Source of the DNA: Telopea speciosissima
Taxonomy: Eukaryota; Streptophyta; Magnoliopsida; Proteales; Proteaceae
Assembly (NCBI RefSeq): GCF_018873765.1
Contig: NW_025317351.1
Location: 620,001-684,000, forward strand
Reading direction: 5' to 3'
Length of the DNA: 64,000 nt
Below are positions 2,447 to 61,860 of the stretch, in pieces (position 1 is the first letter of the stretch; every line of letters starts with the position of its first letter). The position numbers and the translations under genes were made by a program. The notes under the pieces were generated by a model. The model saw only the letters and a program-made list of their open reading frames with translations, was not told where the DNA came from and did not search any database.

Positions 2447-2514
2447 CTTTTAAGACTTGAGGTACCTCATAGGTACTTTAATCAAATGTTGGGCACCTTA
2501 CATGTAATTTACCC
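2447..2514. repeat. Lone right terminal repeat of the ARF-carrying Pack-MULE
   Basis: The sequence from CTTTTAAGACTTGAGG through the ACATGTAATTTACCC end is the same block that closes the ARF elements at 24900, 43567, 53569 and 58943. No ARF exons precede it here, so this is a remnant left at the border of the duplicated region. Confidence 0.75.
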
Positions 2515-3154
2515 TTACTTTTATGGATGATTAACACCACTTTCAGTTGCAACAGCAGCTAAATGTTAATATGTCCGGGAAGAAGAAAGGTGCACAGTGG
2601 GGGAAAGGGACAGCTTAAAAAAAGGAAAAATCAGAATTGTAAAAAAAAAGAAAGTTTCATGTACTCAGGTAACATAGTACATTCCAGTCAAACTTTTTCT
2701 TACAGAAACATTTCTTTCTATTGACTTGTGGCTATTGTTCATTAGCAGCACCTGTGGAGAGCAGCAGAGGCAGACACTGTAGTTTCAAAATCGTGCTTCT
2801 CAAGAATAAAACTAAGGTCCTCCAGTATTTGTGCATTGCTGGTGAGAAGTAGGTAACATAGTAAAAAAATAGGGTTTTTTTTTAATACTATTTTATCCCT
2901 TTTTTCCGTACTGATACGGTAGTTTCAAAATCATGCTTCTCAACAATCCTTGCTTCGGTTTATATTTGAGAAGTATAATCTAAGGTTTTCATTTGAATAA
3001 CAATGTCTAATATTGCATTTGCAGAGGATCGCTGCATTTTTGTCTATCTTTTTCTCTTTCTTGAATATTGATCTTGAAGCTTATCTACTGGCACCAGTAT
3101 TTCAATGCTTTGCTTACTTTTTTAGGTTGTTTTCTAATGTTTTGCTTGATACAG

Positions 3155-3241
3155 CTTGTTCAACCTCCTACAAATTCGGTTACGAGCCTTAGTTTCAGTC
3201 CCGATGGAAATTACCTCGTCGCTACTTCTTGGGACAATCAG
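3155..3241 (+). pseudogene. RAE1-like WD-protein exon, first copy in unit A
   Basis: This is one 29-codon exon after a CAG acceptor. It encodes QPPTNSVTSLSFSPDGNYL followed by VATSWDNQ. Plant RAE1 (Gle2-type mRNA export and nuclear-pore WD40 protein) has this block at the start of its first WD repeat (SISSLSFSP, then LVATSWDNQVRCWE). BUB3 is the nearest alternative but has ISSWD instead of ATSWD. The rest of RAE1 is absent: right after DNQ the sequence turns into a T-rich tract (GTTTTTTGATCGCC), so the exon is stranded. Its reading frame is intact here. Confidence 0.75.
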
Positions 3242-3782
3242 GTTTTTTGATCGCCGCCACAATAAAATTTCTTCCTTCTTCCTCTTTTCTCTTCTTTATT
3301 TTTAGTCATTCCCTCGCAGTGCTCATTCTAATTTGTGCTAATTTGAAGTGAAGACGTAATCTAATCTTTACGCATTTCCTTTTATGTGTGAAACTTTACT
3401 GTTTCTCAGGAATTCAGGGGTTGTGGTAGTCACTCCAGTCAGTCATACACGCCCATTTCATTCCTTCCTAAATCAGAAATGCTCTCTCCCGCTCTCCCTC
3501 TCCTCATAGAGACCTCATCTAGGTGCTTTCCATGTTGAGTTATGCTACCAGCAGAGGCCACTGTCCAAATTCTTTGAACAGGTGAAGGGAAATTTTTGGT
3601 TGGTTGAAGAAGTGCACCAATAAGTAAAACATTCGCTAACCAAAAACACTGGATAACTTGATTCTTCTTTGCCAAGGTGCACTCTCTCTCTCTCTCTCTC
3701 TCTATAGAGAACCCATATGTGATAAATTTTTGATGCTTTGCTTACTCGTTTAGGTTGTTTTCTGGTGTTTTTCTTGATGCAG

Positions 3783-3869
3783 GTTGTTCAACCTCCTACA
3801 AATTCGGTTACGAGCCTTAGTTTCAGTCCCGAGGGAAATTACCTAGTTGCTACTTCTTGGGACAACCGG
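3783..3869 (+). pseudogene. RAE1-like WD-protein exon, second copy in unit A
   Basis: The same 29-codon exon recurs about 630 bp after the first, preceded by the same intron end (TTTGCTTACTCGTTTAGG, then a CAG acceptor) and encoding FSPEGNYLVATSWDNR. The pair is an internal duplication that every full unit shares, so it predates the spread of the units. Between the pair lies about 540 bp of intron-like sequence with a TC microsatellite (3687-3702). Confidence 0.75.
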
Positions 3870-4020
3870 GTTTTTTGATCGCTGCCTCAATTGAATTTCT
3901 TTCTTCTTCCTCTTTTATCTTCCTTACTTTTTAGTCATTCTAATTTGTGCTATTTTTAAGTGAAGATCGTAATCTAATCTGTTCGCATTTCCTTCTTCCT
4001 CTTTTCTCTCCTTTATCTTC

Positions 4021-4242
4021 ATTGAGCTCCAGAAGCAAGCATATTAAGGACCGGTTCCATATTCGTCAGAATCCATTTTTTCTGCCATCGTTGAAATCAT
4101 CTATATGCTTTACAGTTGCAGAAGCCAACTCCAGAGCCGCCAAGAACAATCCATCTCAGCGGAGTCTTTTGTTTTCACAATGCCTCTTTATTACGTAAAT
4201 GCCCCTCCCCACATGGGAAGCGCCTATACTACCATTGCCGCT
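4021..4242 (+). pseudogene. Methionyl-tRNA synthetase (organellar type) N-terminal fragment, unit A
   Basis: A Ser/Arg-rich stretch (SSRSKHIKDRFHIRQNP) resembles a plastid/mitochondrial transit peptide. It is followed by [20 protein letters not shown] and TTIAA. The block [20 protein letters not shown] with the PPHMGSAY class-I signature is the start of the catalytic domain of plant organellar MetRS (Arabidopsis OVA1 type), which charges tRNA-Met. The transit part and the catalytic start are in different frames in this copy. The match stops after TTIAA, where aquaporin sequence begins. A near-repeat of GCCAAGAACAATC lies both before (4138-4150) and just after (4243-4255) the catalytic piece. 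Confidence 0.8.
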
Positions 4243-4261
4243 GCCAAGAACAATCTGCCTC

Positions 4262-4730
4262 TAGTTTTGTTTCATGATCTTCATCCTTGTTTACTGCACC
4301 GCCGGTATCTCTAGTGGGTAATCCATTTGTTTGCTTCTTTTTTTGTTTTCTGTTGTTTACAATTTGATTATAAACAATTGTGTGTGTGTGTGTGTGTGTG
4401 TACAGGAGGGCATATTAACCCAGAAGTAACGTTTGGGCTTTTCATAGCCCGTAAAGTGTCACCAATCCGTGCTGTGATGTACATGGTGGCACAATGCTTG
4501 GGTGCAATGTGTGAAATAGGGCTAGTAAAGGCCTTCCAAAAGTCTTACTATGTGCAGTATGGTGGTGGGGCGAATGAGATCACCGATGGCTACAGGAAAG
4601 GTGTGGGTTTGGCGGCTGAAATTAATGGTACCTTCGTCCTTGTCTACACAGTTTTCTTTGCTACTTATCCCATGACAAGTGCCAGAGACTCTCATATCCC
4701 CGTAAGTTCACCTGTTTTACTTGGAAAATA
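4262..4730 (+). pseudogene. PIP2-type aquaporin fragment, unit A
   Basis: The end of exon 1 ([18 protein letters not shown], 4268-4312) is followed by an intron with a (TG)n tract and then a full-length exon 2 (4406-4701, 296 nt) with a GTAAGT donor. Exon 2 reads [18 protein letters not shown], then [20 protein letters not shown] and [12 protein letters not shown]. Plasma-membrane aquaporins have [13 protein letters not shown] (loop B with the first NPA) and [30 protein letters not shown] is the PIP2 form. Here NPA has become NPE and FSATDPKRS has become FATYPMTS. The frame is open, but the other membrane helices and the second NPA are missing, so it cannot be a water channel. Confidence 0.9.
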
Positions 4731-60211: not shown

Positions 60212-60298
60212 GTTGTTCAACCTTCTACAAATTCGGTTACGAGCGTTAGTTTCAGTCCCGAGGGAAATTACGTCGTTGCTACTTCTTGGGACAACCAG
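60212..60298 (+). pseudogene. RAE1-like exon, second copy in unit E
   Basis: It encodes VVQPSTNSVTSVSFSPEG, then YVVATSWDNQ. Open, with a CAG acceptor. Confidence 0.7.
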
Positions 60299-60368
60299 GT
60301 TTTTTGATCGCCGCCTCATTTGAATTTGTTCTCTTTTATCTTCCTTATTTTTTAGTCTATTCTAATTT

Positions 60369-60504
60369 GTGCTATTTTTAAGTGAAGATCGTAATCTAAT
60401 CTGTTCGCATTTCCTTGTTCCTCTTTTCTCTCCTTTGTGCTATTTTTAAGTGAAGATCGTAATCTAATCTGTTGGCATTTCCTTGTTCCTCTTTTCTCTC
60501 CTTT
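60369..60504. repeat. 68-bp tandem duplication ahead of the MetRS piece
   Basis: GTGCTATTTTTAAGTGAAGA to TCTCTCCTTT occurs twice with a 68-bp period, differing at one site (GTTCGC / GTTGGC). The other units have one copy. Confidence 0.85.
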
Positions 60505-60510
60505 ATCTTC

Positions 60511-60730
60511 ATTGAGCTCCAGAAGCAAGAATATTAAGGACCGGTTCCATATTCGTCAGAATCCGTTTTCTTTGCCGTCATTTAACTCATCTGTGCTTTA
60601 CAGTTGTAGAAGCCAACTCCAGAGTCGCCAAGAACAATCCACCTCCACGAAGCCTTTTGTTCTCACAATGCCTCTTTATTACGTAAATGCCCCTCCCTAC
60701 ATGGGATGCGCCTATACTACCATTGCCACC
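60511..60730 (+). pseudogene. Organellar MetRS N-terminal fragment, unit E
   Basis: SSRSKNIKDRFHIRQNPFSL, then [20 protein letters not shown] and AYTTIAT. The His of PPHMG, part of the class-I HIGH-type signature, is Tyr here. Transit-like and catalytic parts run in one frame in this copy (60437-60730). Confidence 0.75.
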
Positions 60731-60747
60731 GCCAAGAACAATCCGCC

Positions 60748-61346
60748 TCCAATTTTGTTTCATGATCTTCATCCTCGTTTACTGCACTGCTGGTATCTCT
60801 GGTGGGTAATTCATTTTTTTGCTTCTTTTTCTGTTTTCTGTTGTTTACAATTTGATTATAAACAAATGTGTGCGTGTGTACAGGATGGCATATTAACTCA
60901 GCAGTGACGTTTGGGTTTTTCATAGCCCGTAAAGTGTCACTAATCCATGCTGTGATGTACATGGTGGCACAATGCTTGGGTGCAATGTGTGAAGTAGGGC
61001 TAGTAAAGGCCTTCCAAAAGTCTTACTATGTGCAGTATGGTGGTGGGGCGAACGAGATCACCGATGGCTACAGCAAAGGTGTGGGTTTGGCAGCTGAAAT
61101 TTTTGGTACCTTCGTCCTTGTCTACACTGTTTTCTCTGCTACTGATCCCAAAAGAAGTGCCAGAGACTCCCTTGTGCCCGTAAGTTCACCTGTTTTACTT
61201 GGAAAACAGAGTATTATTAGAAGTGACATAGAAATCATTCTCAATTCTCTTGTTAACCCACATGGAAAACGTTTTAATTGAGAACTTTTGCTTTGGATTT
61301 ACAGGTATTGGCACCACTTCCAATTGGATTTGCAGTTTTGTTCCCC
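60748..61346 (+). pseudogene. PIP2-type aquaporin fragment, unit E
   Basis: Exon 1 end about 60755-60800; exon 2 60884-61179 open throughout ([70 protein letters not shown]) with a GTAAGT donor; exon 3 start 61305-61346 (VLAPLPIGFAVL). NPA is NSA. Exon 3 then joins GGTGGGTAGGACAATCAGG of the RAE1 exon end. Confidence 0.85.
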
Positions 61347-61860
61347 CTCCTTGGTGGGTAGGACAATCAGGTTTTTTAATGCCACCACAATTGAATTTCT
61401 TCCTTCTTCCTCTTTTCTCTTCTTTATTTTTTAGTCATTCCCTCACAATGCTCATTCTAATTTGCGCTATTTTGAAGTGAAGATCGTAATCTACTGCCAC
61501 TTGTATTTCTATGCTTTGCTTACTGGTTTAGATTGTTTTCAGATGTTTTGCTTGATACAGGTTGTTCAACCTCCTACAAATTCGGTTTCAGTCCCAAGGG
61601 TTTTAAAATTTGAACAGGCCCAAGCCCAACCCTAAAGGTCCGGCTCCACCTGGTACACTTCACCTTATTCAAGCAGTCATAGGTCAAACCTGCAGCCTTG
61701 CACTGCAAAAAATTTCAGATGGAAAAGCCATCATTGTCATCGAAATGCTGAGGTTTTCTCGTTGAGGTTCTCTACTTCACTTGGACCTGCATCTCTAGCT
61801 ACCGCCATTTTCATTTCATTCAAGACTACTTCACTGTAACTCGAACTCATCACTATTTTC

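Follow-up and report, generated by a model that had tools for sequence, protein, structure and literature searches.

Layout of the array

The window analyzed here, a stretch of 64,000 nucleotides of Telopea speciosissima, lies on contig C15 of the 823-Mb genome. It contains a head-to-tail repeat with a unit of about 5.4 kb, in which a Pack-MULE of about 2.4 kb carrying a piece of an ARF gene is followed by a chimera of about 3.1 kb made of pieces of RAE1, organellar methionyl-tRNA synthetase (MetRS) and PIP2 aquaporin genes. Self-BLAST of the window and a map of its modules show that the alternation of this composite with the ARF element is real, with five same-strand copies sharing their module order, in line with the original prediction. 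The claim that five copies are full was overstated. One is complete (copy 2), one is nearly complete (copy 4), and the three others are cut within the PIP piece, internally deleted at 45673 or devoid of the end module.

All elements of the array given below are on the forward strand. A right-terminal remnant of the Pack-MULE without its body (2447-2514), recognized by self-BLAST and by its match to the terminal repeat and junction, precedes copy 1 (2515-4763), which ends inside a PIP piece identified by the Pfam domain MIP (E 6e-27). A relative of the composite with RAE1 and PIP pieces and without ARF, hereafter type 2, occupies 19974-21381. It is followed by a composite remnant (22124-22458), in which the deletion known from 45673 has likewise brought the PIP piece and the end module together, and by a Pack-MULE body (22458-24900) that has a complete right terminal repeat, lacks the outer left terminus and includes a 225-bp tandem duplication (23884-24336). 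Copy 2 (24901-27996) is followed by a short stretch of the MULE left terminal repeat carrying the common left junction (27997-28032) and by another type-2 relative (28033-29323), 92.6% identical to 20095-21381. The next body (36998-43568) lacks its left part and precedes copy 3 (43569-45902), the one with the internal deletion. Finally, a third body (45902-53569) is followed by copy 4 (53570-56647), and a fourth one without left terminal repeat (56644-58943) by copy 5 (58944-61723), which lacks the end module.

Two of the four ARF-element bodies are split by LTR retrotransposons, both of copia type by eye. The one at 37940-43207, on the reverse strand, has identical terminal repeats of 222 bp and a 5-bp target duplication (TGTTC). 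The one at 47174-52793, on the forward strand, has 193-bp terminal repeats that are 96.4% identical and a 5-bp target duplication (GATCT). Both are later insertions. The outermost left terminus of the Pack-MULE is present in none of the four bodies. Its right ends had been predicted at five positions, four of which (2514, 24900, 53569 and 58943) are exact and one of which, 43567, is off by one (43568); all five have the same junction. The last two are 5374 bp apart, and nearest neighbours elsewhere on C15 and on C17 are spaced by 4.6-5.6 kb, some with internal deletions. Strand and module order are constant inside each of the three C15 blocks fetched, which cover part of the arrays.

Gene pieces and their homologous loci

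All four gene pieces have homologous genes at separate loci of the genome, and introns are retained alongside exons in the PIP, RAE1 and ARF pieces when these are aligned with the homologous loci. Together with searches of the PDB, this bears out the prediction that at least four unrelated host genes contributed pieces with introns. Taking copy 4 as an example, all pieces being on the forward strand, the first RAE1 piece (54128-54460) spans an exon and flanking intron and matches locus L043 at 78% over 307 columns (54128-54425) and 93% over 28 (54433-54460), and the second (54794-55040) matches the same locus at 79% over 260 columns. The N-terminal exon of an organellar-type MetRS (55070-55306) is 89% identical to locus L045 over 237 columns. 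The PIP2 piece (55330-55876; 78% to locus L041 over 600 columns) runs from the end of exon 1 through intron 1, exon 2 and intron 2 to the start of exon 3. In the locus alignment, two further RAE1 pieces, 3a and 3b (55895-56124), have exchanged places compared with the gene. In the adjoining Pack-MULE, the ARF piece with its introns (57064-58401) matches locus L039 at 87% over 1315 columns (57064-58337) and 92% over 60 (58342-58401); the homologous gene is at C6:67078000-67080000.

The PIP2 identity is given by a PDB search (E 2e-48), as is that of the MetRS N-terminus, using the piece of copy 3 (E 3.6e-5), while ARF and RAE1 were identified through the homologous loci of the same genome. Direct identification of RAE1 in the PDB failed: the 28-aa query matches WD-repeat proteins generally among the best 60 of 391 rows. 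Since this match is unspecific, the name of this piece rests on the homologous loci and on a motif that we take to be that of RAE1. The intact genes were recovered by protein searches and missed by DNA searches with the composite, probably because the array copies occupy the scored matches.

The RAE1/MetRS/PIP chimera also occurs in clusters without the ARF element. On C1, these type-2 clusters are found at about 8.1-8.8, 10.0-11.0, 14.0-14.7 and 83.6-84.0 Mb, and C1 also has at least one clean head-to-tail tandem repeat, of 4,107 bp, with 95.3% identity and no DNA between the repeats.

Unit junctions and the growth of the array

The ARF element resembles a Pack-MULE in its terminal repeats and its gene piece. 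The two ends of 22456-24900 are inverted matches of each other, and so are the ends of many copies, with 72-81% identity along some 60-117 bp (near 110 bp in most), and an intron-bearing ARF fragment lies inside. In an ORF scan, no stop-to-stop frame longer than 131 aa overlaps 22458-24900. The family has dispersed copies on C7 and C6, and the C7 relative has both terminal repeats and a clean 9-bp target duplication, TAAAAATTA, on both sides, the trace that transposition leaves. Unlike this relative, the array copies were read without the outer left end, which is absent in all of the 11 array left ends read; hence target duplications are invisible in them. A genome-wide search allowing at most 3 mismatches found no outer left end either. 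The 44-bp complete right terminus occurs 23 times, always at a right junction and never at a left end.

Two junctions define the unit, and they show its clonal spread. The junction between the MULE right end and the chimera is the same in 27 places (18 on C15, 8 on C17 and 1 on C302), and that between the chimera and the truncated MULE left end in 19 (12 on C15, 6 on C17 and 1 on C86), both with at most 3 mismatches. The genome-wide pattern search found neither on the large contigs C1-C11, and the reversed-pattern controls gave no matches. Full-length matches to the composite are likewise found only on C15, C17 and C302, among the 40 of 288 candidates scored. Some units also share derived breaks. 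Three copies have the same chimera deletion directly before the MULE (C15:394.3, 642.2 and 665.7 kb), and three have lost the first ~344 MULE bases, two of them at one breakpoint (C15:385.0 and 404.8 kb) and one at a slightly different position (399.7 kb). On C17, four matches begin at the same MULE base, as judged from the matches. As C15 spans no more than 764 kb and C17 no more than 495 kb, mis-assembly of their arrays is possible, although the 6-9% divergence between units speaks against it. No telomere repeat that would place C15 was on this contig among the first matches listed of 278.

Because the junctions are common, the contigs few and the MULE left end lost in all copies read, we consider it very likely that the locus consists of tandem copies of a chimeric segment adjoining a left-truncated ARF Pack-MULE, and that it grew by block duplication rather than by transposition, which sets its element apart from a typical Pack-MULE. 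The local tandem duplication originally proposed is thus supported, with junctions confined to four contigs and no target duplications in the array copies read. In such a scenario, the ARF MULE would have landed beside the chimera, and the joint between its truncated left end and the chimera end would stem from the first tandem duplication or from a deletion preceding it. Unequal crossing-over, or an equivalent replication-based duplication, could then have multiplied the unit. Later, blocks of several units would have been duplicated, one or more inversions would have occurred, and units would have exchanged sequence.

The idea that MULE and chimera multiplied as one segment held only in part. 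Across the left junction, the distances between units are congruent (r 0.67, p 1e-4, 13 pairs), and they are barely so across the right one (r 0.22, p 0.07, 16 pairs; r 0.14, p 0.18, 17 pairs), so strict multiplication as one unit is too simple. The weak congruence may partly reflect exchange between units or the alignment of short, gap-rich pieces. It would also be expected if ARF Pack-MULEs had inserted repeatedly, at a preferred target site, into tandem composites that already existed. The mobility of the family, with its C7 and C6 copies, and a mean divergence slightly lower in MULE parts (5.6-6.7%) than in most chimera parts (7.8-8.7%; 6.5-6.7% in the end module, the copy sets varying between these values) go in the same direction. 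However, one base would have to be struck 27 times and the left end truncated at one place 19 times, without one complete left end among the 11 read. We therefore rejected repeated insertion at one site on the common truncated left junction, and regard it as very improbable.

The whole unit could instead be one larger transposable element, a Helitron or nested MULE, that took up pieces of all four genes and whose copies inserted head to tail. Unrelated gene pieces that share an orientation and keep their introns, as in this unit, are typical of Helitrons, and type-2 pieces are scattered over C1, C15, C17 and C38, with single matches to part of the C1 repeat on C4 and C6 (2 of 43). Helitrons begin with 5' TC, end with a 3' hairpin and CTRR, and insert between A and T. 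Yet the three stretches scanned gave only short inverted repeats (nine pairs, 19-28 nt, 70-89%), and by eye none of these bounds the composite. No copy of either unit junction was found outside the array contigs, and on C1 the repeats follow one another head to tail without a seam. This makes a larger element unlikely.

Coding constraint and significance

Changes unique to one array copy were compared with expectations from the non-coding spectrum. In PIP exon 2 (12 copies), nonsynonymous, synonymous and stop changes number 49:17:3 versus 48.4:18.1:2.6 expected, and proportions are likewise neutral in two ARF exons (15 copies each). Hence, no coding constraint after duplication was detected in these three exons, and the copies appear to be decaying as non-coding DNA does. 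It is extremely unlikely that they are a recently formed family of chimeric genes, expressed and maintained by selection, despite several observations in that direction. Sixteen of the 23 PIP exon pieces of both types are free of stops and indels (the other seven have one or the other), their pooled omega is 0.76, and the exon totals of unique changes are below the non-coding prediction (69 vs 92, 32 vs 47 and 19 vs 25, or 0.68-0.75 of the density), an unclean comparison of 12-15 with 12-20 copies. From a naive simulation, stops were to be expected in about 11 copies, and we saw them in 4 of 23. We dropped this deficit as a sign of selection on PIP, since the simulation ignored shared ancestry, counting shared changes as independent, and the test on unique changes is neutral.

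The amplified block has probably lost the ability to transpose and probably has no coding function. It behaves as a satellite with a large unit built of gene scraps, and shows how such scraps can turn into a repeat family without jumping. Macrosatellites and long tandem repeats, the latter treated in plants in PMC6567227 and PMC7274563, resemble it in their clustered head-to-tail units, here of 4-5.5 kb with closely similar junctions and exon changes in neutral proportions, and differ in that the unit here is pieced together from at least four protein-coding genes and a transposon. Judged by titles and abstract openings, we found no comparable case among the papers listed in searches for tandem arrays of Pack-MULEs or gene fragments. 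Sdic of Drosophila melanogaster arose as a gene fusion and is an expressed gene family, whereas here no constraint was detected and a Pack-MULE lies inside the unit. What they share is a chimera that was subsequently multiplied in tandem. The tandem repetition of Sdic is described in PMC7475035.

There is a small chance that, more generally, gene-fragment chimeras, in which parts of housekeeping and regulatory genes are joined at the DNA level, can found a satellite-like family amplified repeatedly on one chromosome (C1) and on contigs possibly belonging to it. Because the repeats contain exons whose parent genes are live (PIP2, ARF, RAE1 and MetRS), they could in that case feed small RNAs acting on those genes. 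The usual view is that transposition spreads the gene fragments that transposons carry. In this array, a chimera of three or more genes multiplied as a tandem block together with a disabled Pack-MULE that holds a further gene piece, and on a chromosome a related chimera did likewise. Capture and amplification therefore look like distinct steps, each with its own machinery. With the common junctions and the measured divergence, the order of events can be tested in related Proteaceae.

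Layout of the array

The original prediction was of an array of chimeric gene-fragment units alternating with ARF-carrying Pack-MULEs, and self-comparison and a module map show that this array is real. The self-comparison and the mapping of seven modules place the Pack-MULE in alternation with the composite (the chimera of RAE1, organellar MetRS and PIP2 pieces) across the window, on the forward strand throughout. According to the module map, the window holds five composite copies, one complete and one nearly complete. Two of the four Pack-MULE bodies are interrupted by LTR retrotransposons, both of copia type as judged by eye, whose terminal repeats are 100% (222 bp) and 96.4% (193 bp) identical; these insertions have 5-bp target duplications, so the two split units predate them. 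In the genome (823 Mb in 1287 contigs, with plant-type CCCTAAA telomere repeats), the module map shows the alternation again on C15, the 764,448-bp contig whose positions 620001-684000 form the window, at 80-146 kb on the opposite strand and at 382-417 kb. The matches on C17, where the sequence covered consists of two loci of about 5 kb, point the same way.

Two pairs of multi-unit stretches on C15, 386.8-391.2 kb with 406.5-410.0 kb and 99.4-106 kb with 124-131 kb, each have an unusual module order in common, which suggests higher-order duplication in blocks of about 20-25 kb. Two internal duplications in tandem, 68 bp (window 60366-60504) and 225 bp (23884-24336) long and both at 97-98% identity, look like recent local changes. 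Other segments of the window are also duplicated, 13295-15087 with 17176-19021 (89.4% over 1856 columns) and 16514-16959 with 19080-19517 (91.7%), and in the module map the array modules do not match them. Pfam gave no match for a 144-aa ORF (14652-15086), nor, at E 0.1, for the ORFs at 859-2075, which we take by eye to resemble a dihydroflavonol-reductase-like gene. On the reverse strand, an RNase H-like ORF (RVT_3, E 4e-18) and its neighbour at 29722-30841 are perhaps the remnant of a non-LTR retroelement.

Junctions and mode of amplification

The Pack-MULE bears terminal inverted repeats. One dispersed relative on C7 has the 9-bp duplication TAAAAATTA on its borders, and a second, at C6:56.5 Mb, retains the right end only. 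Array copies have a complete right terminus, and all 11 left ends found by pattern join the composite inside the terminal repeat; no complete left end was found genome-wide within 3 mismatches. The junction between the MULE right end and the composite occurs 27 times in the genome, confined to C15, C17 and C302, and that between the composite end and the truncated left end 19 times, confined to C15, C17 and C86. Reversed control patterns for both gave no matches in the genome. Independent insertions cannot plausibly have produced so many identical junctions on so few contigs.

The local tandem duplication originally proposed is thus correct at its core, given the recurrent junctions and the derived deletions common to several units. 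Across the left junction, distance matrices are congruent (13 pairs, r 0.67, p 1e-4; in a second analysis, 7 pairs, r 0.69, p 4e-4), whereas across the right junction congruence is weak (16 pairs, r 0.22, p 0.07; 17 pairs, r 0.14, p 0.18). Values within elements are also reduced (seven, from 0.24 to 0.66, with p above 0.05 in two), so congruence is lost to some extent throughout, as it would be with exchange of sequence between units. Nevertheless, the weak right-junction congruence counts against a simple picture of amplification.

Origin of the gene pieces and coding constraint

All pieces have homologous genes in this genome, at loci apart from one another. The ARF gene (C6:67.08 Mb) has open exons, and the PIP2 gene (C3:22.87 Mb) has three, beginning at the start methionine. 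MetRS lies at C1:17.5 Mb (100% identity over a 27-aa query). For RAE1, similar loci lie at C1:7.2, C7:4.8 and C11:35.2 Mb, with further matches at the level of protein search at C8:52.0 and C1:68.0 Mb. At DNA level the matches run through introns: that for PIP begins at the end of exon 1 and stops at the start of exon 3, that for RAE1 covers an exon plus intron, and that for ARF spans 1.3 kb. The pieces were therefore captured from genomic DNA. In the longest BLAST matches, composite pieces are 77-83% identical to the gene for PIP, 77-81% for RAE1 (C1:7.2 Mb locus) and 86-89% for MetRS; ARF pieces are at 87%. Composites within the window are 85-91% identical to each other in long BLAST matches. 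As the PIP and RAE1 values fall below this range, their capture looks older than the amplification; the same order is not clear for MetRS. Most differences between the ARF copies and the C6 gene are synonymous (omega 0.10-0.34 in five exons, of which one is represented by a single copy; the sixth yielded no copies), so the real donor may have been a paralogue of that gene.

Constraint within the array was assessed from changes confined to a single copy, with expectations from the non-coding spectrum. In PIP exon 2 (12 copies), nonsynonymous, synonymous and stop changes number 49, 17 and 3 against 48.4, 18.1 and 2.6 expected. One ARF exon (15 copies) has 23:7:2 against 23.6:7.6:0.8, and another (15 copies) 15:4:0 against 13.5:4.1:1.4. 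In total, 69, 32 and 19 unique changes were counted in these three exons, respectively, where the non-coding rate predicts 92, 47 and 25; copy numbers differ between the two sides, which confounds this comparison. Apparent constraint in cruder counts (stops in 4 of 23 copies against 11 expected; pooled omega of 0.76) was discarded, as these mixed both types of chimera and shared ancestry.

A second tandem form

Type 2, a relative of the composite, lacks ARF and carries pieces of the same genes arranged in a different order. The window has it twice, at 19974-21381 and 28033-29323; further copies lie on other parts of C15 and on C1. Among the 150 of 257 candidates that were scored, PIP-piece matches recur every ~4.1 kb at C1:8.64-8.65 Mb, and the 9.9 kb at C1:8639000-8648900 form a clean head-to-tail 4,107-bp tandem repeat (95.3%) with PIP and RAE1 pieces. 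Judged by eye from motifs, the repeat presumably also has another RAE1-like exon and a stretch resembling PRP4 kinase. An ARF MULE fragment (C1:8630839-8631310, 95% identity, query 136-602) lies about 8 kb from this repeat, which places the MULE, too, in the neighbourhood of the type-2 cluster. A neighbouring, non-PIP part of the repeat has 43 matches, of which C1 carries 31, C15 seven, C17 three, and C4 and C6 one apiece.

Pack-MULEs, gene-fragment chimeras and tandem duplications are each already known; among the titles and abstract openings of a part of the literature, we found no description of the three combined as a large-unit repeat family. Together, the array and the 4,107-bp repeat on C1 show that gene-fragment chimeras have been tandemly amplified in this genome in at least two forms, alongside a few outlying pieces.
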